Positions 1 through 35,560 of a stretch of DNA of 64,000 bases are shown piece after piece. Position 1 is the first letter of the stretch. Every line of letters starts with the position of its first letter. Position numbers and translations under genes: made by a program. Origin of the DNA: Candidatus Cloacimonadota bacterium (lineage in GTDB: Bacteria > Muiribacteriota > UBA6191); contig JAGSHD010000013.1 in assembly GCA_023954715.1 (NCBI GenBank), forward strand, positions 62,001 to 126,000, written 5' to 3'. A model generated the notes under the pieces. It worked only from the letters and a program-made list of their open reading frames with translations, was not told the DNA's origin and did not search any database.

Positions 1-311
1 CTACTTATGACTCTGGGGTAAAAAAAGAGTTATCAGAAGTGTATAATATGCCTCTTAGAATGATTTATACTATTGGAAACTCTGCCAAAACTATGGCTCA
101 ATATAAAATATTTAGAAAGCTAACAGAAGAGATCAATCGTTTTGTTCGATCAAGTTCAGCATTTGGAACTGATGAAATTTTAGAAATCCCATTAAAGCTA
201 AAAATGAAAATAGCTCCCGAAGAAACTGAAAAAATTCAGCGATCGGTAGTTGGTCCAGCTCCTAAAATAGTAGAAAAAAAGAAAAAAGGTTTCTTTTCAC
301 TAGGAAAATAG
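1..311 (+). CDS. C-terminal part of an unrecognised protein, cut by window edge
   Basis: The frame is open from the first bases of the window (codon phase starts at base 3) to a TAG at 309-311, so this is the last ~102 codons of a longer gene. A GTG at 39 is in frame, but nothing marks it as the true start. The visible part is helical and charged and ends in a lysine-rich tail (VEKKKKGFFSLGK). No signal peptide or family motif can be seen. I do not recognise it. Confidence 0.6.
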   Translation, partial: TYDSGVKKELSEVYNMPLRMIYTIGNSAKTMAQYKIFRKLTEEINRFVRSSSAFGTDEILEIPLKLKMKIAPEETEKIQRSVVGPAPKIVEKKKKGFFSLGK

Positions 312-590: not shown

Positions 591-2960
591 ATGAAAAAAG
601 TCATAGTTATAGGTGTTTTGTTATTGCTAAGCAATTCAATCGTATTCTCACAGGTCAAAAATGTTTGTAAAACAATTCAAATTATTCAAGATTTAGATCC
701 AGTAGAGTATTCAAAACTACGCTCTTCTAAAAGTCATAAAAGTATACAAAAAACGGTCTTTAATTTAGGAGACCTTAGGAGTATGAGAGTTGATGAAGGC
801 TCTAGATTTTTATCCATGAGGTTAAAGTATAGTAGTCTGTCTTCTACTAAATTTGGTGTGGTTCGGGTAAATGTTTGGGTGGATGATGTTTTATATCAAA
901 GTCAGACAACAAATTTATTGAACTCTGCTAATAGTTTTTCTTCACAAGCTGCGCGTATTGCAGATCGAGATGTAGTGATTCAAGATGTTGGAGATGTTTT
1001 AAGAGATGATATCTTACCAGAGGGGGTTAAAGTTTTTGGTCGCTTTCAAGATTTACCAAATAGTAACTCTGAGGGTGTAAATGTATATTTGTATGATATT
1101 ACTGATAACTTTTCAGATCCTGGTCCTAATGGTGGTAGTTATATTGGAGGATACTTTGATCCTTTAGATGTGACTGGCTCAGGTAACTATATGAAAGCCG
1201 TTCACATGGATATCTACCCAAACAATCCAGGGGGACGTGTAGCAGAAGGCGTAACGAAAAAAGATTTTTATCACGTATTAGCTCACGAGTTTCAACATTT
1301 ATTACATAATCAATACGATCAAAATGAAACAATCTGGCTCAATGAGGGCTTATCTCAGTTTGCGATTTATCGGATTTTTCATGGAAAAACATTTCCAAGT
1401 ACGGCATCTAATATTATTGATACGCCACTGGATGCACCAAACCAAGTAAAATGGTGGTATGGCTATTCAAAAAATGGTTTCAAGCAAGGAGGGCCTCAGA
1501 CTTCTCATTTAATGACTTCTGATGAATCGGGATTGCAAGATTCATCGATTAATCAGTCCTTTAGTAAAAGACAAGACAATGTGGAGTTACGTGGGATAGG
1601 TTATTTATTCTTTTGTTATTTGTGGGAGCAATTAGGTGGCGGCTTTAATCTATCTAAACAATTGATATCAAGTTCAGCTGCTGCTGATGATGTATTTTTG
1701 AATGTTGCCTCATCTTCTTTGAATGGATTGTCCTCGATTCAAACGGCTATCAATTCAAAAGGTTTAAATTTTAATGATTTATTTAACTCATTTTCTATGG
1801 CAATGTATTTGAAAGCATCACAAGGTGCGCTATCTTTTAACTTTTTTCAAGATCATGTGGACAATACTAATTCAAGTCTAGCTTTAAATGTAAGTCAAAA
1901 TATTTTGAGTTTATCTCCTGATATGGTGGAGAGAGTGTATGGGTTAGATGCCTATGCATTTCGATTTATACACTTGAATGGTACAAGCACTAACGCTGTG
2001 ATTAATGTACAAGGAGCTCAAAACTTTCAGGCGACTTTATTTGGTTTGGACTCACTTGGAGGAAAAATCATTGAATATCAAAACTTGTCCTCAAGTCACA
2101 GCATATCTATTCCTGCAAATCAGCAAAGGATTTTATTAATTAGTAATGCAAATGCAAAATTTGTAGATGTATCTATTAAGTATATTCAGAGTTTAAGTGT
2201 ATCAGGTGATGTTGTTACTCCAGTATCCTTAACGGCTGGCTATATAGATGGTGATTTGCTAAATCCAGTTACCATTAACGGATTTCAAATTAAAAAACAA
2301 AGGCTTACAAATAATACCGGAAACACACTAGATCTATTAAATCCAAACCCTCAAGAAATACAAATTTCTGCTTGTATCGCTACTCAGGCATGTGTTCATG
2401 CTTCAAAACTAGCTGTAAAGCCTAAGCGCTCGGCAATGAGTGTTTCTGTAGGTGGAACTGATTATAGTTTTAGTAATTTATCATTAAATAATGGAGTGAG
2501 CTACGATTTATATTATGCTAACAAATCAGCAAGTAGTTTTTCTATGACCCCACGAGTAACGCAAGCCAGTGTCTTTACTGTTCCTAAAAATGCCGCTCCT
2601 ACTATCGTTTCAGATGTAAGTAGCTCTTTTGGATCCAGCACAGGTAGCGGAGGATGTTTTTTGGCTAGTGCTTCTTTTTTAGGAAAAGATAGTTATGAAG
2701 TACAAGTTTTATCATTATTTAGAGATAAATATTTATTAACAAATTCTCTTGGTCGAGCCTTTGTAAAAACTTATTATACCTATTCACCTCAGGTGGCTAA
2801 TTGGATGAAAACCAATTCTAAAATTATGTTTATCGGGCAAGTTTTATTGATCCCGTTAGTGTTTGTAAGCTCGCTTTTAAAGTTAGGCTTGTTTCAGCTC
2901 TTTCTTTTTTCGCTCCTACTGATGATTCTGTTACCCATAAAGCTTTCTAGAAGAAAGTAG
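591..2960 (+). CDS. Secreted M30-like zinc metalloprotease with CFI-box C-terminal module
   Basis: The 789-residue protein starts with a signal peptide (hydrophobic residues 4-20). An HEFQH zinc motif lies at residues 232-236, and a WLNEG motif follows with Glu252 as probable third ligand; this arrangement is typical of M30 (hyicolysin-like) and related gluzincins. A beta-rich, Ser/Asn-rich region follows. The C-terminus has a Gly-rich linker, then the CFI-type box beginning at Cys689 (GGCFLASASF), an FRDKYLL segment, a YYTYSP segment and two hydrophobic helices (about 745-789) ending in SRRK. A ribosome site (AAAGG) lies 6-7 bases before ATG. It is first of three tandem paralogs and the only one with an intact zinc site. 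The protein is probably exported and held at the membrane by its tail; its substrate is unknown. Confidence 0.8.
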   Translation: MKKVIVIGVLLLLSNSIVFSQVKNVCKTIQIIQDLDPVEYSKLRSSKSHKSIQKTVFNLGDLRSMRVDEGSRFLSMRLKYSSLSSTKFGVVRVNVWVDDVLYQSQTTNLLNSANSFSSQAARIADRDVVIQDVGDVLRDDILPEGVKVFGRFQDLPNSNSEGVNVYLYDITDNFSDPGPNGGSYIGGYFDPLDVTGSGNYMKAVHMDIYPNNPGGRVAEGVTKKDFYHVLAHEFQHLLHNQYDQNETIWLNEGLSQFAIYRIFHGKTFPSTASNIIDTPLDAPNQVKWWYGYSKNGFKQGGPQTSHLMTSDESGLQDSSINQSFSKRQDNVELRGIGYLFFCYLWEQLGGGFNLSKQLISSSAAADDVFLNVASSSLNGLSSIQTAINSKGLNFNDLFNSFSMAMYLKASQGALSFNFFQDHVDNTNSSLALNVSQNILSLSPDMVERVYGLDAYAFRFIHLNGTSTNAVINVQGAQNFQATLFGLDSLGGKIIEYQNLSSSHSISIPANQQRILLISNANAKFVDVSIKYIQSLSVSGDVVTPVSLTAGYIDGDLLNPVTINGFQIKKQRLTNNTGNTLDLLNPNPQEIQISACIATQACVHASKLAVKPKRSAMSVSVGGTDYSFSNLSLNNGVSYDLYYANKSASSFSMTPRVTQASVFTVPKNAAPTIVSDVSSSFGSSTGSGGCFLASASFLGKDSYEVQVLSLFRDKYLLTNSLGRAFVKTYYTYSPQVANWMKTNSKIMFIGQVLLIPLVFVSSLLKLGLFQLFLFSLLLMILLPIKLSRRK

Positions 2961-3009
2961 TTCATACTAAATCAAAGTGATAGGCTAGATAGGACAACTC
3001 TTATCGACT

Positions 3010-3038
3010 GTGGCTAAAACGAGTTTCGGAATAGCCAC
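3010..3038. other. Hairpin between two CFI-box genes
   Basis: GTGGCTA (3010-3016) and TAGCCAC (3032-3038) form a perfect 7-bp stem with a 15-base loop, 50 bases after the first CFI-box gene. No T-run follows, so a standard terminator is not supported. It could be an mRNA processing or stability element within the three-gene cluster. Confidence 0.3.
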
Positions 3039-3124
3039 CAATTCATCATTCAAAAAGTATCAATTATTAGTAGAATTTGTTCGATGTTGAATACGTGTTT
3101 CTTATTGAAAAGAGAGAAATTTTA

Positions 3125-5350
3125 ATGAACCTTATTCTTCGAGTTATTTGTTTTATATACTGTATTAACCTTACGAGTGCTGCATTAATCGGCGATCGAA
3201 GGGATTTTGACGTGCCAGATACTATTTCTGGACAGATCGAAACTTTCTCTGCTACGGCAAGATATACAGTCAACGTACGACCAGGATTAGACCTAACTGT
3301 ATGGGTAGAAGACTCTGTATATAATTCGAGTACTTTGAATGGACTAAATCAAACTGGTAAAGGGGATTTACTGCAGGATAGAACCAACGGTGTGATTGAG
3401 TTTGCTACTTGGCTAAAGACGGTATTGATTCCAGGTTTTGAGAACAGCTTTAAAACATTTTCAGAAGTAAACAACTCAGGTTCTCCAGGATTAAACTTTC
3501 TATTTTTAGATTTAAAAGATGGCTTTAGCACAAAAGGATCTTATTTTGCTTCGCACTTTAGTCCTTTAGATCAAGAGCCATCTACCGGATTTAATGGAAT
3601 GAACCTAATCTATTTAGATGTGAACCCTGGAACTATTGAGCTTGAAATTGAATCAGGGATTACAAAATTAAGTTTTTATAGGGAAGTGGTTCGAGTAATT
3701 TCTCGATTGCTACAATATCAATCGGATAAAACCGAAGAGACATGGATCAAAGAAGGCATTAGTCAGTTTATGACCTATCGACTTCTAAAAGAAAAAAGCT
3801 TTCCCAATTCTCAGAGCTTAATTTTAGATGCCCCCTCAAAAGGTATCTCAGAACTAAGTGAGTATTTTGAAGATATTTCTTTAATGAAAGCTGAGTATAA
3901 TTTTAATGAAGCAAATTTGGATCGTGTGTATTTTAGAAGAAATCAATTGTCTCCCAATGACAACATTGATTCAAAACGCTTTAGATCATTTTCTTACTTG
4001 TTTTTTACTTATCTGTTTCAAAGAGCTGGGGGCAGCTTTTTAGTATCAAAGACAGATGGGGATCGCTTTTTTTTAGATTTAATGAGCCAGCCTTTAGATG
4101 GTGTTTCTGGCTTAGAAGCATCGTTAGCTGCAAGAGGTTTACCTGATTTTAAGACTTTATATTCTGATTATATGTTGGCCTTAGTTTTAAGAAACCAAGA
4201 AAATAATTTTCATTTAGACTCTTTTAACACTCCTATAATAGATTTTACAAATAAAAAGACATTAACTACAGTTGGACAATTTGATTTAATTCAATTAGAA
4301 AAATATCAGTCAAATTTTTTAAATTTGACTAATCTAAACACTATTTATACCGCAACAACTCAATATACTCCTCAGCCATCTTTACAAAAGTCAAAAATTT
4401 ACTTATTAAAAACAGATGCTAAAGGAAACCATTATATATATCGAGAGATGTATGCCAACGATCTTTCGGAGTTTGTAGGAGAGCAAGAAAAAATGGTTTC
4501 TATGACTTTAAATTTAGATAGTTCGACGAAGCAATTTCATAGTCAACTAGTTATTGGAAACGCCTATCAAAAGGTTCAACTATTGATGGTAGGACAAGAA
4601 GCGTCTAGCGAAACCTCTGAAGCAGTTCAGACATTTATTGTAAATGATTCTAATCTACCCGCACAAAATCAGACAGGTGTTATTCAGGTTAGCCTAAATC
4701 AAGCGGGAGTATGGGAAGGTTTGACCTTTGAAAACCGAACAAATTCTCCAATTTTATGGTCTTTAGAAAAAAGTGTCATAACTACAAGGGTACATTTGTA
4801 TACTAAAAATACAAGTAACCTATCCCTTTCTACATTGGCACCAAAAACAGGAATAAAAGTGTCACTGCTTCGAGAGAATAGCAAGGCAGATTTTGTTTTG
4901 ATAAATGAAAATACTAATTTAGTTAATTTTAGTTTGTTTTATGAACCATTGGATTCGACACTTTTTCCGAAGAAAGAGCTTGTTGTACCGACTCCTTCTA
5001 CAGAACTAACAGAGGCAGAAAGAAGAAAAATTGCCGGAGGTGGAAGTGGAGGATGTTTTGTTGCTACAGCATCTTTTGGCTCTAAAAGTCACCCAATAGT
5101 AATTTTATTGAGTAAGTTTCGAGATCAGTATTTATTGAAAAATGGTGTGGGTGTACTTTTTGTTGAAAACTATTATAAATACTCTCCTCCCATTGCCAAT
5201 TGGATTTCAAAGTCCAAGTTGTTGAGATGGGGATGTCAGTTATTGTTATTGCCTCTAGTATTATTTGCTAGTTTATTAATGAGTTCTTTGTTACAAATAC
5301 TCGTATTAAGTTTATTCGTTTCTATTATTTTTTTAAGGTTAAAAAAATGA
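3125..5350 (+). CDS. Secreted CFI-box protein, protease paralog with inactivated zinc site
   Basis: The ATG at 3125 is preferred over an upstream in-frame ATG at 3077 because AAAGAGAG lies just before it and a signal peptide ([19 protein letters not shown]) follows at once. The 741-residue product aligns with the preceding protein through the whole protease region. The zinc motif is destroyed: the positions of His232, Glu233 and His236 are Arg190, Val191 and Arg194, while the WIKEG glutamate (Glu210) remains. The C-terminal module is complete: Gly-rich linker, Cys644 ([12 protein letters not shown]), FRDQYLL, YYKYSP and two membrane helices. The stop overlaps the next start (ATGA), so the two are translationally coupled. 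It is likely a pseudoenzyme with a binding or structural role. Confidence 0.75.
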
Positions 5351-8300
5351 AATTTTTAAGATTGTTATTACTTATTTTATGTCTTACTCCGTTTTCTGAA
5401 GCTATCATTTTTGAAAACACTCAATTTAATGATGTTGACTTTCAAAAAGCCAATGCCAATGTTTCTTTGGAGTTAAAGACCGTTGTTGAAACGATCAAAT
5501 TAATCACAGAAGAAACAATGAAAGTATATGGTGAAGTTACTCATCCATACTCTAATGTTGAAAATGAAGTAATTATCAATGTGCTCTTATATGACATTAT
5601 TGATCGTGATAGCAACGTCTCTAATAGAATGCCGGGATATTTTTCACAGTTTGACCAACTAAAAGAAAATGGTACGGGTGTTGATAAGATAATCAATGGT
5701 GTTTCAAATTTTGGGAATATAATTTATCTGGATTTGGATCCTTATGACCCTACTCTGAAACTAGCAACTTCAAGTAGTGACGTTACAACAAAGAGCTTGT
5801 TTGCCAATAGAAACTCTTTTTATGGTGCATATGCTGGATCGTTGGCTAAATTGATTCATTTTCAACGAATGAATGCAGGCATTAAAGATTATCAAATAGC
5901 TAATAATTTGATTAATATCGATTACAATTGGTTAGATTCGATACTGGCAAACTTTAACTCTTTTAGAGCGATGAAAAATTTAAATGTGGATCAGTATGGC
6001 GTAGAGCCAGGTGTAAAACTGCAAGTTACAACTGCCACATTGATTGGTGGCTTATTAACTTATCAAACGAGTAATGGGGATAGTTTGTACGATACAACGG
6101 GAGCCGTAAATAATCCAAACGATTATAGTTCAATAGATAAAAATATAGCCCCAAGATCATTAATCCACTATCTTAAAAATAAGCCAAAAGATCTCCCATT
6201 CCCTCATTTGTTTTATAAAGATCAAGTATTGCTAAAATATCAACAAAGTGAGATTTTAACAGAAAGAAACTATGGAGATTTATCAGATAATTTAGGTACA
6301 TTTCTCATGATATATATGTGGGAACAATTACAAAGTTTGGGGGTTGATGATGGTGATACAACTCGGCGTATGGGGGATCGCTTTATACAAGTTTTAGCTA
6401 ATTTAAAAAATACTTTCGAAATAGCTCCTGGAGTACAGTCGTCATTTTATCAGACTTCTACTGTGATCCCTGACCCAATACAAATTGCTAGTAGGAAAGC
6501 TTGCACGCAAGCGGGCGCACCGGTAGATAAAATTTGTCAAATTAATAAAGCGCTGTTTGATTTGTTAATGAGTGATGCCGATGTAGCAGACAGACCAGAT
6601 AGTTTCGCTAGTTTTATTGGTGTAAATCCAGAAAAGAGTAAAAAGAATAGAAACTTTCAAGATTACTTTGATGACATGGCGGTTGCAATGTATATGGATC
6701 GCCCAGCCACAGACCGCACAGCACCATTGAGTCGATATGAACTAAGAAATTTTGATATGGCTAAACTGGATAATATTTATGCAGGGCTTTCTAAGGAGAA
6801 TGTTTTTAGCTTCAATATTGGTCAAAGGCCTGGAGTAGATCATCGCTGTGAAATTAATAGTGCCAATACAGTAAACTGTGTTCCAACAGAACTAGTGAAA
6901 GTCATTTCATCTATATCTAGTAAATCTACGTCAGCTAGTTATACGGCTTCTGAAGAATTGTATTCGGCTCTTTTTTCTCAAGATTTCACACCCAATAAAG
7001 CAAATGTGAATCAGTACTCTATTGACTATTATAAGTTATTAAACTCGGCGTCAACAGCTGATATTTCATTTGGTATTGATGATGTTACACAGTTAAATGA
7101 TGTATCCTCAAAAAGATCATTTGTTAGAACTTCCATAAAGACGAAATTTATTGATCAAAATTCAAAAATGAATTATGGAATTACCACTTATATTGTAGGA
7201 AAATCAACTAGTGCAACAGATCAAACCTCGAGTAGAGTTTTATATGCATCCGGTATTCAAAAATCACAAATTGGTATACAGATTCCAAAAGCAAGTTTTT
7301 CTAATAGCTCCTTGAGTCGAGTTTCTTCAAAATCTAGGATAGAGAGAATAAGTAAAAACCGGGCTAGAGGTTCAGCGAGCATTTCTAAAAGACTAGAAGG
7401 GGTCCACGCCAGTATCCTCAAAAATTATAATTTGTCTAGATCAGTTGGGGCTATATCTGGGGTAACTCAGTGGGATCGATATAAAACAGTAAATGAAGTT
7501 AGAACAAACCCTTCAGTATATGATGTTGATACTGCCTTCAGAAATTATACGACAACTTTTAAAACTATAGATTTTTCCAAAACAGATGAAACAAAGGTCA
7601 TCTATAATAAAAATACAGCATTATTAAAAGAAAAAATCACTGGGACCTTTAGAAACTTAAGATATAAAATTTTGTTATGGGTAGATCAACAGAACTTATC
7701 TAAAGGGGATACAGAGGTTCCGCAGCCTGAGGATACAAGTGGTTCAACCATAGAAGAGGATCCAAATCCAACACAACAGGTTACAAAAGCAGTTGATATC
7801 GGGGCATTAGACTTTAGTAGTGGTAATCAAACGGGAGAAAGTGTAAATATATCTTCTTTGTCTGATTTGGATAATCCATATATTTTAAAGATTACAAACA
7901 ATACGGATGAAGCCATTTCTATTAAGTTTAGTTTAAACAACTCTACAAAAGCTTCAGAAAAGTTTTTATTAACGAATCCATCCGCTTCAAAATCTAGAGT
8001 TGCTGCAAATTGGAAAACCTTAATTCTAACTAAAAAGTCAATTCAGTACTCCACCTTTGCTCAGGATTCAATGGATGCATCTTATACGATTGCTCCTAGA
8101 AGTGTTAGAAGTTTTGGAATTGCTAATAAGGGCAACTCCAATGAAAGTCTATTATATGTACTTCAAAAAGTGCAGTCTTCTAGCTCTCAGGTGGGAGACC
8201 CCACTGTAGCAGCAGTAGAGAACAGCGGCGGTGGTGGCGGTGGCGGTTGTTTTATCGCTACAGCTGCCTATGGTAGTTTATACCATCCTATAGTAAAGGA

Positions 8301-8559
8301 TTTAGTTAAGTTTAGAGATCAAATTTTGTTGAAAAGTAATACGGGTACACAATTTGTTAACCTTTATTATACTTACTCTCCTAAAATTGCTAACTTTATC
8401 GCTGAAAGTCAGGTATTGAGGTGGCTAACAGCTATGGCATTATTACCATTATGGCTATTTTCAATAATAACTGTGTATAGCTTTAGTTTAAGTCTTGCAC
8501 TGATTTTCGCTTTGGCAGCTACTGGTTTAGTTTGGCTATTTCGTCCAAGACTTCGTTAG
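5347..8559 (+). CDS. Large secreted CFI-box protein, most diverged member of the triplet
   Basis: The start overlaps the previous stop by four bases (ATGA). The product has 1070 residues and a signal peptide ([19 protein letters not shown]). The region matching the zinc site reads [16 protein letters not shown]: His, Glu and His are replaced by Gly164, Ser165 and Lys168, and WLNEG has become WLDSI, so every ligand is gone. Long insertions (about residues 200-330 and 370-440) explain the greater length. A Gly7 run precedes Cys968, and the CFI box here is the classical form ([10 protein letters not shown]), followed by FRDQILL, YYTYSP and two hydrophobic helices. Its 3' end overlaps the convergent gene at 8519-9241 by 41 bases. 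It is presumably surface- or periplasm-exposed; its function is unknown. Confidence 0.75.
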
Positions 8560-9241
8560 CGTCATCAAACTGAGAGATTGTTTTAGATAAATCACTTTTG
8601 AAATCAATGACTAACTGATCTCCTTCAGCAATTTTACTGGATTTTAACTTTAGATTATCAATTTGTAGTAAGATACTTTTAACTTGAGAATAGTAATGGA
8701 TAATCTGTTGTTTATTGTTTTGATAAAGCTTTTGCTTTTCAAGAAGCGAATCTAAAATCTCTGTTTGCATGGATTTTGAGTGTTCATCGCTGATGCCGTT
8801 TATTTTTTCTTTGGCGATTTTAATTTCGCTATGGATCACTCGATGATTGGTATTTACATAGTCATCTAGCATGGCTAAAACTTTGTCCTTGTTTGAATAC
8901 ACTCCATTTTGTAGAGTAATCTCTAAATCTTGCATGAGATCAAGGATCACATCTTGTTCATTGTCCTGTAAGTGTTTTTTTAACTGAGTTAAATGGGATT
9001 GTAGAGTTTGCTCAAAGTTCGGAATATAAACTTGATCAATTTCTGGATGAGTTTTGATTTTTTCTATTCTTTTATTAATGTTTTCTTGGTGAGCAAGGCT
9101 AAGCTTTTTCTTTTGCCACCAACGAATGGACACAGTAAAAGTTGCTGCTAATGCTAAGAGAGTCACGATAGGGTAATAGTATAAAAAAGCAGATGAGCCG
9201 ATTAGAAGGCAGATTGCCGCTGCGAGTAATAATTCTTCCAT
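8519..9241 (-). CDS. Membrane-anchored coiled-coil protein of unknown function
   Basis: The 240-residue protein has two close N-terminal hydrophobic helices (about residues 4-40), then a long charged helical region predicted as coiled coil facing the cytoplasm. The last ~95 residues ([10 protein letters not shown] region onward) resemble the C-terminus of the FHA-domain protein at 28906-30054, including a shared EKQ...QN..K core. No clear Shine-Dalgarno precedes the ATG. The stop lies inside the end of the convergent CFI-box gene. Two similar dyads at 9301-9403 sit upstream and may control it. I do not recognise a named family. Confidence 0.65.
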
Positions 9242-9734: not shown

Positions 9735-12602
9735 ATGGATTTAGTTCGTTCAATTTTAACCTCACATAAAATTATGTCTTCAAAAGAGCTAGAGCTTGAA
9801 GATATAGTTATAAAGGACCTGTTTCATAGCCATCCGTCAGTAGTTATTTCCTCGTTAAAAACTTTAGAAAAAATGGGAGATACTAGTATTTTAGAGCATT
9901 CTAAAAATCTATTTAGGTCTTCTAAAGAAAGTATTAAACTAAAAGTTATTGATAACATGAAGGCAAGTTACCATGAGGAGTACAAAGAGTTTCTTTTAGG
10001 GATCCTTCATTCGAGCGAGAGTAAGGCAGTTGTCAACAGAGTTATATTGACACTAGGAGCAGCAGGGGATGACGAAGAGATACTACAGCAACTACGCAAT
10101 ATCGCAGGTTTTGCTACCAGTGATCTAGAAAAACGAAAAACTGGGATTAGTGCCTTAAAGTTGGCAAAGGATTTTTCTTTTTTATCTCAACTCTGGAAAG
10201 AATACGTAGTACATGATGAGGATTACGATTTGCTCAAGCATTCATTAGAGGCTGTGGCAGAATATCAAGATTCTGAGTTATTCCAAGAGCTCTATAGAAA
10301 GTATAGAGAAATCGGAGAGCCCCATACAGACAAGGGTGAACTTTTCGTAGTAGCAATGTTTGATACTTATGCTGAAGACTCATCGTCTCAAGTTTTAATG
10401 AATCAACTAAAAGAGCGACTAGTTTTAAAATGTCGATCTATTTCAGAGGCAGAGTGTAACTTTGTTTACAATATATTGATTAATTTGAAGCAAGTAGATA
10501 AGCCGTTTTTTGTAAAATGTATTAATGCTATTTTAATATCAAAACATATATCAAAATCAGGTCAAATTTTAAAAAAACAGGCCTTTTTAAAATTGTTTGA
10601 GGATATTAAGGATGATGAGATTTCGATTAAGGGGATCACATCAACTTACATCAAGATACTTTATAACTATCAAGCGCTCCTTCAAGCTAAAATCAGTGCG
10701 AGAGGGCCTGATAGACATCGTGAGTTAAAACAAGATTTTGTTGAGTTTTTTGATACTCTTGGTAACCAAAAACTTTTAACCATAGTTATCTCATATCTTA
10801 AGTCCAATCCAATTGAGCCAGCAAAAAGAGGGCTGATTTTAGGAGTTTTAGCGAAACTAAAAGACTCTTTATCTCCAAGACAAAAGATCCTAATGGCCAG
10901 TACACTCAAACTTTTAAGTGTTGAAGATACTAGGCACAGGGCTTCTTTAGGGATGGCATGCTCTAAAATAGATTTAACAGAGTCTATTTCAGGGATGCTG
11001 ACAGATTTGGAGACTTTAGTTGCCCTTGGTGGGGCCTTTCGTGGAGACAAGGTTTACAACACATACATGAAAATCTTTGATTTACTTGGGAGCTTCCCTA
11101 GTACTCGTAGGGTTCGATTGACACTTTTAAGTTGGATAGCCCATTCTGGCAAAGAAAAGGGGATGGAGTTTGTTCTAAATTATCTTGAAAATAAAGATGG
11201 TGCTACTGGTATAGCTGTTTTAAAAGATTTACCTCCTCAAGATGTTACTGATTTAAATTTTTTAAAAAATCGCTTTAAGGATGACCGTAGACTATCAGTT
11301 ATTTTTTTACAAAATCTATTTTTAATTTTTTCTAAAATCGAGGACGTAAAAGATCAAGACTGGCTACGGATATTAATGAACATATCGCAGGGTAAATATG
11401 GTGAAGTTCATGAGGCACTTAAATCAAGAACAGAATTCTTTTTATCAAAAAATGGTGGTTTAGTTGGTTTAAATAATGTGATGATTCGCATAAGAAAACG
11501 GCATTTTATCTTAAATCAAGGCGATATTGATTTATTGTTTTCTTATGTGGAAAACGTAGATGATTCTAAAAAAGATAGTTTAGAAGAGTTAAAAGACTTA
11601 TTGTATGGATGTATGAAAGAAGAGAATGACGACTTTTATGCTGATCTTGGATGTTTGCTATTTTTGATGGGCGAAAGTTATGGCGAAACGATGATCGTCA
11701 AAGGCTTAGATTCTACAGAGCCTTCTGTTGTTACTAAGGCAATTGAATATGCAAGAAGAATAAAAATTAACTCTTGTTGGGTTAAGATATTACATTGTAT
11801 TGCGATCGACTCTTTTTTAGTTCACCAAAAATTAGCGACCTATTTTGAAGAGGATGAGTCAACGATTGAAAAAAAGGCTTTATTATCAGAGTTACGATTT
11901 ATTCGAACTGGAGAAAGAGATGAATACGAAGCATCTCAAGATCAAGCCCTCTCCGATGATGAGCAAGATGAATTAAACTCCCTATTCGGCAAAATGCGAT
12001 CTTCAGGCTTGTCAAACAAGGCAAAATTTCAGTTTGAGCAAAATATGAAAGAGTTAACGATCTTTTTTATAGATATTGCCGGCTACACCAAAAAGTCTAA
12101 TACATTAGACATTTCAGAGATCATGTTAATGTTAGATGATTTTTCGAATTTGATTGTTCCAATCGGAGAAAAATTTAATGGTACATTGATTAAAAAAATT
12201 GGTGACTGTTTTATGTATACATTCGAAAATAGACTAGAGGCAGTATTGATGTCTTTAGAGGTGCAAGCTGAGTTAAAAGATTATAACGAGCATCACGTAG
12301 AAAGAGACAGAGTAAACACTCGTATTGGGCTCAATACTGGTAAAGTTTTTCTAAAAGAAAATGATGTATATGGTGATCCTGTAAATGTGGCTTCTCGAGT
12401 AGAGTCAAAAGCTCCCATGAACAGTCTTTTGATTAATGCCACTACTTTAGAGGGTATAGAAGACTTTATTGAATATGAAAAAATGGAGCCAATTATGGTT
12501 AAGGGTATCGATGACCCCTTACAGACCTTTCATGTTTTAGGCTCCAAGCCTGGTGTTGTTCAAACCTATTTAGATCAAAAAAGCCTCGAGCTTGAAGAGT
12601 AA
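9735..12602 (+). CDS. HEAT-type repeat protein fused to a class III adenylate/guanylate cyclase
   Basis: The 955-residue protein has about 750 residues of helical repeats, HEAT-like in the first ~250 (for example VISSLKTLEKMGD). A class III cyclase domain follows at about 770-950. The expected catalytic residues are present: metal-binding Asp780 (FIDIAGYT) and Asp824 (KKIGD), base-recognising Lys820 and Asp877 (NDVYGD), and transition-state Asn884 and Arg888 (VNVASR). Lys plus Asp favours ATP over GTP, so cAMP is the likely product. There is no signal peptide or membrane helix, so the enzyme is cytoplasmic and probably controlled by proteins docking on the repeats. It is a single gene, with no cyclic-nucleotide-binding protein beside it in this window. 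Confidence 0.85.
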   Translation: MDLVRSILTSHKIMSSKELELEDIVIKDLFHSHPSVVISSLKTLEKMGDTSILEHSKNLFRSSKESIKLKVIDNMKASYHEEYKEFLLGILHSSESKAVVNRVILTLGAAGDDEEILQQLRNIAGFATSDLEKRKTGISALKLAKDFSFLSQLWKEYVVHDEDYDLLKHSLEAVAEYQDSELFQELYRKYREIGEPHTDKGELFVVAMFDTYAEDSSSQVLMNQLKERLVLKCRSISEAECNFVYNILINLKQVDKPFFVKCINAILISKHISKSGQILKKQAFLKLFEDIKDDEISIKGITSTYIKILYNYQALLQAKISARGPDRHRELKQDFVEFFDTLGNQKLLTIVISYLKSNPIEPAKRGLILGVLAKLKDSLSPRQKILMASTLKLLSVEDTRHRASLGMACSKIDLTESISGMLTDLETLVALGGAFRGDKVYNTYMKIFDLLGSFPSTRRVRLTLLSWIAHSGKEKGMEFVLNYLENKDGATGIAVLKDLPPQDVTDLNFLKNRFKDDRRLSVIFLQNLFLIFSKIEDVKDQDWLRILMNISQGKYGEVHEALKSRTEFFLSKNGGLVGLNNVMIRIRKRHFILNQGDIDLLFSYVENVDDSKKDSLEELKDLLYGCMKEENDDFYADLGCLLFLMGESYGETMIVKGLDSTEPSVVTKAIEYARRIKINSCWVKILHCIAIDSFLVHQKLATYFEEDESTIEKKALLSELRFIRTGERDEYEASQDQALSDDEQDELNSLFGKMRSSGLSNKAKFQFEQNMKELTIFFIDIAGYTKKSNTLDISEIMLMLDDFSNLIVPIGEKFNGTLIKKIGDCFMYTFENRLEAVLMSLEVQAELKDYNEHHVERDRVNTRIGLNTGKVFLKENDVYGDPVNVASRVESKAPMNSLLINATTLEGIEDFIEYEKMEPIMVKGIDDPLQTFHVLGSKPGVVQTYLDQKSLELEE

Positions 12603-20143: not shown

Positions 20144-20869
20144 CTACTTTCTTTTAGAATCTCGATAATATGTTGTTCCACCTGTGAATATAGAGCACTT
20201 ATCTTTTTGAAAAACGCATTCAACATATTTACCATCTGTATAGATAATTTTACCAAGTCCATCACGAAGTCCTCTTTTGAAATCTCCTAGGTATTTTTCT
20301 CCATTGATATAGTGTAATGTTCCTTTGGTTCTACGGCCTCTCCAAAAGCTACCCTCATACTTTTGTCCACTTGGCCAAGTCATTGTACCGGTCCCAGCAT
20401 ATTCATCCCATCGAAATTGACCTGTATAGATGATACCGTTTTGTTGGGTATGAGTTCCTTGTAGAATCTCGCCATTATTCCAAACTCCGGTTAAAGTTGA
20501 GCCGTCAGAGTAAACTAACTTGCCGCTTCCGTGTAACTTTCCGAAAGCTACAAACCCTGTATAGTGGTTACCATTGCTCCACTTTTGAGTTCCGCTACCG
20601 TGTTGTACACCGTTTGAAAAAACACCCTTAGCACTTTGCTTAAATTTACCATTTTGATACCAGAATAATGAACCAGACCCATTAGCATAGCCATTTTTAC
20701 ATTGACCTTCATACTTTATTGTTTCATTAGGTAGTGGGTTAAAGTTTCTAACTTTACACTTGGTTGTTTGGTCTACAATATATACATATTTTTTTTTATC
20801 TATTGGGACTACGGTAGCGAAAGTTGTTGAAGATAGAATGATAGAAGCAATTAGGGTATTGAGTTTCAT
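20144..20869 (-). CDS. Secreted MORN-repeat protein (second of a pair)
   Basis: The start at 20869 is chosen for its ribosome site (AAGGA, 5 bases before ATG) and the signal peptide (MKLNTLIASIILSSTTFA). The 241-residue product has about seven MORN repeats, with units such as YTGFVAFGKLHGSGKLVYSD and YLGDFKRGLRDGLGKIIYTD, and ends in a short Cys-containing tail. MORN repeats form an extended beta ladder that binds lipids or proteins. It lies 23 bases after a close paralog and shares its layout: signal peptide, Lys/Cys segment (KCKVRNFNPL), then repeats. It is likely periplasmic or surface-located; its role is unknown. Confidence 0.8.
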   Translation of the reverse strand: MKLNTLIASIILSSTTFATVVPIDKKKYVYIVDQTTKCKVRNFNPLPNETIKYEGQCKNGYANGSGSLFWYQNGKFKQSAKGVFSNGVQHGSGTQKWSNGNHYTGFVAFGKLHGSGKLVYSDGSTLTGVWNNGEILQGTHTQQNGIIYTGQFRWDEYAGTGTMTWPSGQKYEGSFWRGRRTKGTLHYINGEKYLGDFKRGLRDGLGKIIYTDGKYVECVFQKDKCSIFTGGTTYYRDSKRK

Positions 20870-20892
20870 TTGATTCCTTGCGTTGACGTGAC

Positions 20893-21582
20893 TTACTTTT
20901 GTTTTTGCGAGGATGGGCATTTGCCATTTACAAAATTACATTTTAAAACTTTACCACTTTTGAATGTGACGGTACCTTCTCCGTATGCAAGTCCATCTTT
21001 AAAGGGTCCTTTATATTGATCCCCATTTGGAAGGTATAAAACTCCATGAGTTTGTTTACCTTTTAAAAATTTACCTTTATATCTAACTTTATTTGGCCAA
21101 GTAAGTTCACCAAATCCGTCGTAGTTCTCTGACGCAAACTGCCCAGTATATTTCATACCGTTTTTTAGAAAGTGGGTATCTTTTTTAAGTTCATTATTTT
21201 GCCAAACTCCAGCAAGCTTAGACTTGTCTCGCAGTAGCATCTCACCCTGTCCATGTAAAAGGCCGTTTGATATTGTTCCTCGATACTCCATACCGGTGAT
21301 CCATCTTCTAGAGCCTTTGCCGTGGAGTAGTCCATTTAAAAATGTACCCTTGTCCTCATGATCAAAAATACAATATTCATACCATCTGACGCTTCTTTGG
21401 CCGTTGACATATCCATTTTTACATTTTCCGGAGTATTCAATACTCTGGCCTTTTATAGGTTTTAATTTTTTGACTTTGCACTTTGATTCTTTATCTATCA
21501 TGTAATCAAGGGTGTTCTGTGATGAGGTAAAGATTGATGGCGTTAATATGACGCTTAGTAATAATACTAATTTTAGTTTCAT
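20893..21582 (-). CDS. Secreted MORN-repeat protein (first of a pair)
   Basis: The start is ATG 21582, preceded by AGGA and followed by a signal peptide (MKLKLVLLLSVILTPSIFTSS). The 229 residues hold a run of MORN repeats such as YRGTISNGLLHGQGEMLLRD and YKGPFKDGLAYGEGTVTFKS. It shares the KCKVKKLKPIKG lead-in and the C-terminal Cys pattern with its downstream partner, so the pair arose by duplication. Its ribosome site directly follows the T-run of the pgk terminator (minus strand), so some transcripts may be pgk read-through. Confidence 0.8.
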   Translation of the reverse strand: MKLKLVLLLSVILTPSIFTSSQNTLDYMIDKESKCKVKKLKPIKGQSIEYSGKCKNGYVNGQRSVRWYEYCIFDHEDKGTFLNGLLHGKGSRRWITGMEYRGTISNGLLHGQGEMLLRDKSKLAGVWQNNELKKDTHFLKNGMKYTGQFASENYDGFGELTWPNKVRYKGKFLKGKQTHGVLYLPNGDQYKGPFKDGLAYGEGTVTFKSGKVLKCNFVNGKCPSSQKQK

Positions 21583-21591
21583 ATAATTCCT

Positions 21592-21630
21592 AAAAAAAAC
21601 ACCCCTAAATATTATCATATAAAGGGGTTT
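21592..21630 (-). terminator. Rho-independent terminator after pgk
   Basis: On the minus strand ACCCCT (complement of 21628-21623) pairs with AGGGGT (complement of 21606-21601), followed by a run of eight T. It lies 20 bases after the pgk stop and ends almost at the ribosome site of the first MORN gene. Confidence 0.8.
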
Positions 21631-33171: not shown

Positions 33172-34512
33172 ATGTCTTTTATAAAACAATTTAAGCAACA
33201 ATTAAAAGAGTGCAATGGTAAATTTACAGATCCCGTTTCATTTTTAGTAATGCAAAATACAGAGACTTTAACTTCTTTAAAGGAAGAGGACTTTGTTTTT
33301 TTACTAACTGTAACCAAAAAATTAAAAACAAAAAATGTAGACCAAGGTATATTAAAACAGGCGATTTATAAACTTGATATGATTCAAAAACAGTCTGGTA
33401 GTAGGCGAGTTGCTATTGAATCAACTTTGGATGATGAAGACTTTTCTCCAATATTAGAGTTAGCTAAATCTAGAAATGCAGAAGTAATTCATATTCGAAC
33501 CAATAAAAGACCGTTGTTTAGAATAGCTGGTGTGTTGATGGAGGTAGAAGAGGACTTATCAATTAGTGCGTCTCAATTACAAAAGATGATAGCTAATACT
33601 TTTAGCTCTGTACAATATAATCAATTTCAAACCATGAAATCGGTTTCATTTTCACTTTCATTGGCTGGAGTATCAAGATTTCGAGTTCATGCGTTTTATG
33701 AAAATGATAATATCAGATTGGTATTTAAACAGGTTCCTCTACAGATACCCGAGTTGAGTACTGCCAAGTTAGATCCCAAGTTATTAGATCTTTTACAACA
33801 CAATCAAGACTTATCGGGTCTTGTTTTAATCAATGGTCCTTCTAGGTCTGGTAAAAGTACAAGTTGTGCAGTGTTGCTAGAGTGGATTAATCAAAACCTC
33901 CCAAGAAAGGTATTCTGCTTAGAAGATCCCATCGAATATCTATTTCGAGATAACAAGTCTTCAGTTACTCAAAGAGAAAAGTATTCAGACTTTGAAGACC
34001 TATCTAAAGTGATTCAATACTCTCTCAAAGATGGAGTAGAGATTTTATATGTGACGAAAATTGATTCCTTAGAGACTCTAGAGATCGTTTTAACAGCAGC
34101 AGAAACAGGTGTATTAGTCATATCTACAGTTACAGCTATTGATGTAGTTAGAAGTATAGAGTCACTATTCTTTGGGGCTGATAAAACTGTGAAATTTGGT
34201 TATCAGCAGCGTTTATCTAGAGTGCTACTTTATGTTTCTGCCCAAATTTTAGTACCTAGAAGAGAGGGTGGAAAGGCTTTGGTGAAAGAGCAAGTAATGA
34301 TGGATTCCAGTACTAAAGGAATGGTACGAGAAGGGCAGTTTAAAGTCTTGTCGAATTTAATTGACCAAACCAAAAATGCTAAGATATTTTCATTTCATGC
34401 AGATTTTGAAGATTTGATAAAGCAATCAGAGTTAGAGTGGAACGAAGTTATGGATTTGATTCCAGATTACGAGTCTTTTGAAAAAAAGATGAGATCACAA
34501 GGGTTAATATAA
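33172..34512 (+). CDS. Divergent PilT/PilB-like secretion ATPase, catalytic motifs damaged
   Basis: The 446-residue protein has an extra N-terminal region (~120 residues), then the PilT architecture: a PAS-like N-domain (IHIRTNKRPLFRIAGVL), Walker A at residues 222-230 (GPSRSGKST), and the Asp-box EDPIEYLFR..SSVTQREK. In the Walker B region the PilT GExRD motif reads TKID, so the catalytic Glu is Lys296. The His-box ATLHT reads STVTA, so the His is Thr321. The AAETG motif is kept. Nucleotide binding is plausible, normal hydrolysis is not. A second PilT-like gene follows after 34 bases. It may be a partner subunit for pilus retraction or gliding. Confidence 0.8.
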   Translation: MSFIKQFKQQLKECNGKFTDPVSFLVMQNTETLTSLKEEDFVFLLTVTKKLKTKNVDQGILKQAIYKLDMIQKQSGSRRVAIESTLDDEDFSPILELAKSRNAEVIHIRTNKRPLFRIAGVLMEVEEDLSISASQLQKMIANTFSSVQYNQFQTMKSVSFSLSLAGVSRFRVHAFYENDNIRLVFKQVPLQIPELSTAKLDPKLLDLLQHNQDLSGLVLINGPSRSGKSTSCAVLLEWINQNLPRKVFCLEDPIEYLFRDNKSSVTQREKYSDFEDLSKVIQYSLKDGVEILYVTKIDSLETLEIVLTAAETGVLVISTVTAIDVVRSIESLFFGADKTVKFGYQQRLSRVLLYVSAQILVPRREGGKALVKEQVMMDSSTKGMVREGQFKVLSNLIDQTKNAKIFSFHADFEDLIKQSELEWNEVMDLIPDYESFEKKMRSQGLI

Positions 34513-34546
34513 ATCACTTGATATAAAAGCTGATGTAGGTAAAATT

Positions 34547-35560
34547 ATGAGAGATTTAATAAAAAAAGCAATCGAGTTGCAAGCAGATCGAGTTCATGTT
34601 GTATCAGGAACCATGCCAATTTGCCAAAAATACAAAGAGATTATTCAAATCTCAGATCAACGTACATTACCACCTCAGGTATATCAATTGATTGATGGAC
34701 TACTTGATGAAAAGCAAAAAAAGCGATTATTGAAGGACTCAGAACTCTTTACTTCTATAGATATAGATGACAAGCATTTTGCAAGAGCTCATGTATACAA
34801 GCAAAGAAGTACTTTGGCTATTTCTTTGAAAATTATCAATAAGAAAGTAAATAGTTTGAGTAATATTGGCTTTGATATGGATACTTTAGCAAATTTACTA
34901 AGGCAAAACAGCGGCTTAATTTTGGTTGCCGGTGCGCCTAACTCTGGTAAATCTTCTACTTGTGCTGCTTTAGTTCATCATTATGTATCGCAACGTTCGT
35001 ATCATGCCTTAAGACTATCAGAAACAATTGAAAAAGAGTTTATTGATTATCCAAGCAGTCTTGTTACCCAAAGGCTTGAAGATATAGACTATAAAAAAGA
35101 TGAGTCTATTGTAGATTCTATTTTGATGAGCGATATAGATATCTTAGATATGGGAGAGATTAAAGAGGCAAAAGACTTTAAATTAGCCTGTGATCTTTCG
35201 GCAAAAGGCCTACTAGTTGTCGCGTCCATCGTGGCAAGTGACATAGAAAACGTATTATTTAAATCCCTACACTGTATGGGGGATCCAGAGTTTTTCAGAA
35301 AAGCAATCTCAGAGAATCTTTTGGCTGTCATTCATCAAAGCTATTTTAGAAATAAAAGTAAAGAAGCCTTTTTTATCCATGAAATGTTTCGAGTATATCC
35401 ATCTGTTAAAAAGCATTTATTATTGGCAAACATAACCGCGATTATGAGCTTTTTAGAAAGTGGTGGAAAGTCAGACTGTTTGTTATATAAAAAAGCCTTC
35501 GAATTGTTAGTGGCTGATAACAAGATTCATGAAGAAGAGGTTCCTTCCACATATCGCTAG
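34547..35560 (+). CDS. Second divergent PilT-like ATPase
   Basis: The 337-residue protein has normal PilT length and a shortened PilT layout: N-domain (ADRVHVVSG..PICQKYKEI), Walker A at about 129-137 (GAPNSGKSS), and SLVTQR. The Walker B segment IDILDMGEIKEAKD retains Glu204. The Asp-box Glu-Asp is altered (SETIE for EDPIE), and the His-box has Val229 in place of His (ASIVA for ATLHT). It keeps the Walker B Glu that its upstream neighbour lacks, so a mixed hexamer with complementary sites is conceivable. It is convergent with the gene at 35564, with a gap of only three bases. Confidence 0.75.
   Translation: MRDLIKKAIELQADRVHVVSGTMPICQKYKEIIQISDQRTLPPQVYQLIDGLLDEKQKKRLLKDSELFTSIDIDDKHFARAHVYKQRSTLAISLKIINKKVNSLSNIGFDMDTLANLLRQNSGLILVAGAPNSGKSSTCAALVHHYVSQRSYHALRLSETIEKEFIDYPSSLVTQRLEDIDYKKDESIVDSILMSDIDILDMGEIKEAKDFKLACDLSAKGLLVVASIVASDIENVLFKSLHCMGDPEFFRKAISENLLAVIHQSYFRNKSKEAFFIHEMFRVYPSVKKHLLLANITAIMSFLESGGKSDCLLYKKAFELLVADNKIHEEEVPSTYR

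Follow-up and report, generated by a model that had tools for sequence, protein, structure and literature searches.

A predicted secreted zinc protease of a little-known marine bacterium is encoded next to two homologues that lack its HExxH residues, and the three genes, here called P1, P2 and P3, are consecutive intact frames on the plus strand. We put at roughly one half the probability that this array encodes a surface-anchored, lugdulysin/M30-like zinc protease (P1) together with two pseudoprotease partners (P2 and P3), which are kept for a non-catalytic job and act with P1 as a unit. We infer the zinc binding and activity of P1, the envelope location of the proteins, their physical complex and the role of P2 and P3. 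The array lies in the window, the 64,000-nucleotide stretch of DNA that was analysed and to which all unprefixed positions refer. The window genome (G000) was compared with a congener (G001) and two genomes of a sister genus (G002 and G003), a family sample of four genomes in two genera, and with a phylum sample of 40 genomes. A broad protein scan of the genome contigs gave NORP72 as the sole match; a 2022 paper places the MAG NORP72 in phylum UBP17 (PMC9426571).

Three adjacent genes share a protease domain and a CFI-box tail

P1 (591–2960, 789 residues) is a predicted secreted gluzincin-type zinc protease, in which a lugdulysin/M30-like domain is followed by a beta-rich region and a CFI-box tail. 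P2 (3125–5350) is a P1 homologue over its full length with the same kind of tail, and has 741 residues when read from the ATG at 3125, which suffices as a start (the longer alternative is a TTG at 3077). P3 (5347–8559) is larger, with 1070 residues, and consists of a degenerate protease domain, a unique middle region and a CFI-box tail. The stop codon of P2 and the start codon of P3 overlap as ATGA (5347–5350). P1 and P2 are separated by 164 bp, and about 280 bp lie 5' of P1; as regards co-transcription, these gaps count against reading the array as a unit. No intrinsic terminator or promoter scored above chance, and no terminator-like site was seen between the array genes. Judged by eye, each of the three N-termini resembles a signal peptide.

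The array is preceded by the 3' end (1–311, plus strand) of a conserved gene for a 313-residue secreted protein of unknown family, the start of which precedes the window. A minus-strand gene (8519–9241) for a 240-residue membrane/coiled-coil protein without a family match overlaps the 3' end of P3, and farther downstream (9735–12602) a HEAT-repeat protein is fused to an adenylate/guanylate cyclase domain; both hold their places in all four family genomes. Elsewhere the window encodes two adjoining MORN-repeat-like secreted proteins on the minus strand (20144–21618) and two adjoining PilT-like ATPases of 446 and 337 residues that are divergent from each other (33172–35560).

All three tails pass the curated NCBIfam cut-off of 40 bits for CFI-box-CTERM proteins (CFI_box_CTERM, NF041770), with C-terminal matches of 65.4 bits for P1 (2655–2861), 77.5 bits for P2 (5054–5260) and 79.4 bits for P3 (8248–8451). 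Six such tails occur in the window genome, and the other three sit on proteins of 3019, 4082 and 1596 residues (L090, L091 and L092), two of which carry PKD or FG-GAP domains; the 4082-residue protein is without any Pfam match. The array tail recalls MYXO-CTERM/myxosortase sorting, where secreted proteins bear a C-terminal signature with an invariant Cys, then a hydrophobic helix and a basic end (PMC11980579), but its motif is different and the tail is longer. In open-access papers we found no literature on CFI-box-CTERM proteins and no account of a processing enzyme or of tail function, and as candidate sorting enzymes the genome yielded generic Rce1-like and rhomboid genes only, none of them linked to the tail. 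We propose that the signal peptide of each array protein would direct its export and that the CFI-box tail would then anchor it at the envelope.

Profile-profile comparison (hhalign) matched P2 to P1 over 622 columns (E = 2.8e-64). A P3 profile that ended ahead of the tail matched P1 (E = 3.7e-14) and P2 (E = 4.3e-9), and controls with reversed P3 or unrelated neighbours gave E values of 0.13–0.7 at probabilities of <1%. Homology of the three proteins in the protease domain, and not in the tail alone, is beyond chance. An earlier note on this DNA had described three adjoining intact genes with a signal peptide, a protease-like region and a CFI-box tail in common. Its description is borne out by the frames, the tail scores and, by eye, the signal peptides, and its expectation of a shared fold outside the tail agrees with the profile-profile matches of P2 and P3 to the P1 protease domain.

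Among solved structures, P1 matched lugdulysin (7bb8, E = 1.5e-12), a metalloprotease of Staphylococcus lugdunensis that we take to be a member of MEROPS M30. Lugdulysin was matched by P2 as well (E = 1.5e-7), and was the top, weak match of the P3 profile (E = 0.016). P1 shares with lugdulysin and M30-type (hyicolysin) zinc metalloproteases the HExxH...WLNE arrangement and a sequence match over the catalytic domain, and P2 matches them by sequence. Unlike these enzymes, P1 has Arg in place of Tyr315, a CFI-box tail and dead paralogues alongside, and it matched no Pfam family, curated peptidase models included, at E up to 1. We also considered, and rejected, membership of the MXAN_6640 family of putative metalloproteases (NF045524): P1 scored 14.3 bits against a curated cut-off of 140, and the local matches around the HExxH in G002 P1 and in the phylum's other members were all far under the cut-off (14–51 bits). 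An AlphaFold model of P1 was good over the catalytic domain only; its best PDB matches by Foldseek were M1 gluzincin aminopeptidases (E = 4e-4), with TM-scores that are low because much of the model is poor. A model of P3 residues 1–530 together with its four orthologues had a pLDDT of 30, so the fold of P3 is assigned from sequence profiles.

P2 and P3 have lost the HExxH residues, and P1 carries an altered residue

P1 reads HEFQH...WLNEG, and the HExxH...distal Glu motif is the same in all P1 orthologues. By sequence comparison, His232 and His236 of HEFQH (1284–1298) and the distal Glu252 (1344–1346) would be the zinc ligands, and Glu233 the general base. In P2, the HExxH is replaced by RVISR (3692–3706), that is, His by Arg, Glu by Val and His by Arg, and the distal Glu is kept in WIKEG (3752–3754). 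In P3, which reads GSLAK (5836–5850) and WLDSI, every ligand is lost, Ser198 (5938–5940) standing in for the distal Glu. The earlier note had given the same residues for P1 and P2 and the loss of all ligands in P3, along with the 1070-residue length of P3 and the ATGA overlap, and all of these hold.

His, Glu, His and the distal Glu are present in 41/41 other relatives sampled in the phylum, so the loss of ligands is peculiar to P2 and P3, in all of whose orthologues it is fixed. All four P2 proteins have Arg, then Val, Thr or Ser, then Arg or Lys; they keep the distal Glu and have Arg at the column of lugdulysin Tyr315. P3 of the window's genus (2/2) has Gly or Glu, Ser and Lys, with Ser for the distal Glu and Leu for the Tyr; P3 of the sister genus (2/2) has Arg, Ser or Ala, and Lys, and keeps both the distal Glu and the Tyr. 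No His or general-base Glu stands at the HExxH positions of any P2 or P3 orthologue (four of each; the Glu at the first-His column of G001 P3 is unrelated), and the second-His position is Arg or Lys in every one. It is reasonable to infer that a basic side chain occupies the zinc site, beside the kept Glu in P2.

The Tyr column bears on P1 too. Lugdulysin Tyr315, which was mutated together with Glu242 in PDB 7bb9, is Tyr in all 40 relatives that have the column. P1 and P0, an additional HExxH copy in G001 described below, keep His, Glu, His and Glu, and have Arg at this column in five of five proteins (Arg334 in window P1, 1590–1592). P1, the enzyme, itself departs from the sampled relatives at a position where none of them varies, which makes the word active likely, not certain. 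We regard P1 as the likely enzyme of the array on the strength of its motif, with Arg334 as a qualification. The earlier claim of one active protease therefore stands in part: the full HExxH...E is present in all P1/P0 proteins, and against it are the Arg for Tyr and the two HExxH copies of G001. One could go further and suppose that P1 and P0 are no longer ordinary proteases, that they have kept zinc, exchanged Tyr for Arg and bind or process something else, and that the whole array is non-proteolytic. The Arg in 5/5 P1/P0 and 4/4 P2 proteins, against Tyr in 40/40 relatives, would fit such a change of function. However, the full motif is strictly kept in 5/5 P1/P0 proteins, and in other gluzincins the transition state is assisted by Arg or His; we consider a non-proteolytic array very improbable.

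P2 and P3 are maintained, and may have been inactivated separately

Between G000 and G001, P1, P2 and P3 are 69%, 75% and 61% identical, with dN of 0.24, 0.18 and 0.31 and omega of 0.15, 0.11 and 0.16, respectively; dS is 1.6–1.9, near saturation, so these omega values are rough. Between G002 and G003, omega is 0.03–0.07 where computable. Purifying selection acts on P2 and P3 with about the same strength as on P1, and P2 is conserved better than P1 between the congeners. The loss of all catalytic residues and the faster change of P3 might have marked the dead copies as decaying pseudogenes on their way out. However, long frames have stayed intact in four genomes at near-saturated synonymous divergence, which excludes decay, and dN/dS values of ~0.1–0.16 and the good conservation of P2 argue the same way. 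We reject pseudogene decay as already refuted, and agree with the earlier note that the dead copies are kept.

In the best tree, built with the active-site columns removed, P3 branches deeply and is split (96/94) from P1/P0, P2 and a distant HExxH paralogue. Constraining P2 and P3 together cost 7.3 log units and was not rejected (p-AU 0.135). Since P3 sits on a deeper branch than P2, two inactivations are needed, which suggests that P2 and P3 were inactivated separately, twice; one shared dead ancestor (p-AU 0.135) is less likely than two losses. The presence of Arg at the Tyr column in P1, P0 and P2, and not in sister-genus P3, points in the same direction. The idea of a single stepwise series, as first proposed, is not supported: P3 branches deeper than P2, and sister-genus P3 keeps the distal Glu and the Tyr. 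The distant paralogue (L048:5981–8479 and L079:1181–3637) has HELFH, keeps the Tyr, is without a CFI box and lies elsewhere in both congeners.

The array keeps its order, and P2 and P3 are fused in the sister genus

The order P1-P2-P3 is kept in 4/4 family genomes and between the same neighbours, the 313-residue secreted protein before, and the minus-strand 240-residue gene and the HEAT-repeat/adenylate-cyclase gene after. The cluster is spread over more than one contig in G002 and G003, and each piece agrees with this order. The triplet that the earlier note proposed to seek in related genomes thus recurs in fixed order and is not randomly present. No P2 or P3 orthologue was found in any other genome of the phylum sample (40 examined), and as far as these genomes show, the arrangement is confined to this family.

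Copy number varies within the family. Between the 313-residue gene and P1, G001 has the extra HExxH copy P0 (HEMQH, L040:12577–14877), which is absent from the window genome, so a one-protease stoichiometry is not fixed. The tree makes P0 a duplicate older than the G000/G001 split, and G000 has therefore probably lost it without a recognizable relic; none was found in the gap before P1 of G000. Other families of the phylum have at least two neighbouring HExxH copies of the same family with full motifs (L080, L081, L082, L083, L085 and L086), that is, tandem expansion without inactivation. The order of tpiA, the gene for a pilus-like PilX-type protein and that for the 313-residue secreted protein is the same in G004, which belongs to a different family of the class (L039:3770–7308, L093:455–4185); no P1 relative was found in G004.

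In the separately assembled genomes G002 and G003, no stop codon separates the end of P2 from P3, and the two form a single open frame (L041:3–3998 and L044:8730–11987). At the junction, NRRWLAFAYVLCMLAVSQVFA^NSG or KRQWIGMLLLLVLFATTRVSA^NSG comes after the hydrophobic end of the P2 tail; by eye, this stretch can still be taken for a signal peptide with a -3/-1 cleavage site (VFA^NS / VSA^NS). The longest exact word common to G002 and G003 over the alignable P2-P3 frame has 20 bases, GTGGAGGGAGGCATTGTGTT, and lies just upstream of the junction signal peptide; synonymous sites of the frame are otherwise near saturation (pS ~0.7). This word contains a Shine-Dalgarno-like GGAGGGAGG and an in-frame GTG, and GGAGGGAGG with the GTG looks like a conserved internal ribosome-binding site inside the open frame. 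In the sister genus, P2 and P3 may be made as one fused protein, this protein may be cut by signal peptidase, and P3 may be initiated on its own. The stop-start overlap in the window's genus and the fusion in the sister genus both tie P2 to P3, and the single frame strengthens this link.

P2 and P3 might nevertheless be independent surface proteins with a part in binding, adhesion or matrix. They would have put the protease fold and the CFI-box anchor to new use, would lie beside P1 only as a result of tandem duplication, and would make no contact with it. This is the chief rival. Tandem duplication accounts for the adjacency, P3 has its large unique middle region, and the genome's other CFI-box proteins (1596–4082 residues) include two with PKD or FG-GAP domains, which are typical of surface adhesion or matrix proteins. 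Against it, the order is kept in both genera with P1 always beside P2, P2 and P3 overlap or fuse, and none of the four family genomes has P2 or P3 without P1. We hold independent surface proteins to be a serious possibility at clearly less than even odds. The coupling of P2 to P3 could also mean that these two are the working unit and that P1 is a separate enzyme, possibly one that processes P2-P3 or shares their substrate. Overlap and fusion are indeed limited to P2 and P3, and P1 is set off by roughly 40–160 bp and varies in copy number (P0 in G001). P1 is nonetheless always directly upstream, and we think such a division improbable.

Two proposed pseudoprotease partners of a protease

In our preferred reading, in which P1 acts as a unit with P2 and P3, the latter two would be made together, through the stop-start overlap in the window's genus and from a single frame in the sister genus; being coupled or fused, they would be made in fixed proportion. 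The signal-peptidase-like site (VFA^NS / VSA^NS) could split P2 from P3 in the fused product. Within a protease assembly with P1, the most likely task of the P2-P3 subunits would be to bind or gate substrate, and basic residues would take the place of the zinc. By analogy with the inactive alpha subunit in M16B, non-cutting subunits that bind or gate substrate beside P1 would be the simplest use of P2 and P3. We offer a fuller version tentatively and consider it doubtful in its entirety: an M30-like enzyme whose oxyanion residue has changed from Tyr to Arg may depend for substrate handling on a double-pseudoprotease unit. This unit would be a translationally coupled pair in the window's genus and a polyprotein, perhaps split by signal peptidase, in the sister genus, where the internal start would provide P3 in a second way.

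Proteases with pseudoprotease partners are already known from mitochondria, chloroplasts and a few bacterial M16B operons. The alpha and beta subunits of the mitochondrial processing peptidase (MPP) and bacterial two-gene operons provide the M16B precedent for active/inactive pairs; alpha-MPP has Arg for a zinc His (HxxDR), and the related M16A and M16C are fused (PMC11266112). The array resembles M16B in its adjacent active and inactive homologues, in an order kept in 4/4 family genomes. Unlike M16B, it belongs to an unrelated family, being of the HExxH gluzincin type where M16B is an inverzincin with HxxEH, it has two dead copies, and its fusion joins dead with dead, not active with dead. 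FtsH/FtsHi and other pseudometallopeptidases have likewise lost HExxH ligands in a kept paralogue (PMC11266112, PMC8197885), but FtsH/FtsHi are AAA+ membrane proteases, with another fold and setting than the array. A review of inactive metallopeptidases does not mention M30 (PMC11266112), and in open-access papers we found no record of an M30-like enzyme with two dead paralogues that are fused in one genus; pseudoprotease partners are of a known kind.

If P1, P2 and P3 do form a complex, as the earlier note suggested, they would extend such partnerships to another family of proteases, in this case with a pair of dead subunits and with anchorage at the cell surface. The two genera differ in whether P3 retains its Glu and Tyr and in whether the genes are coupled or fused, which would then make the array a compact system for studying the path from a dead enzyme to a structural partner.
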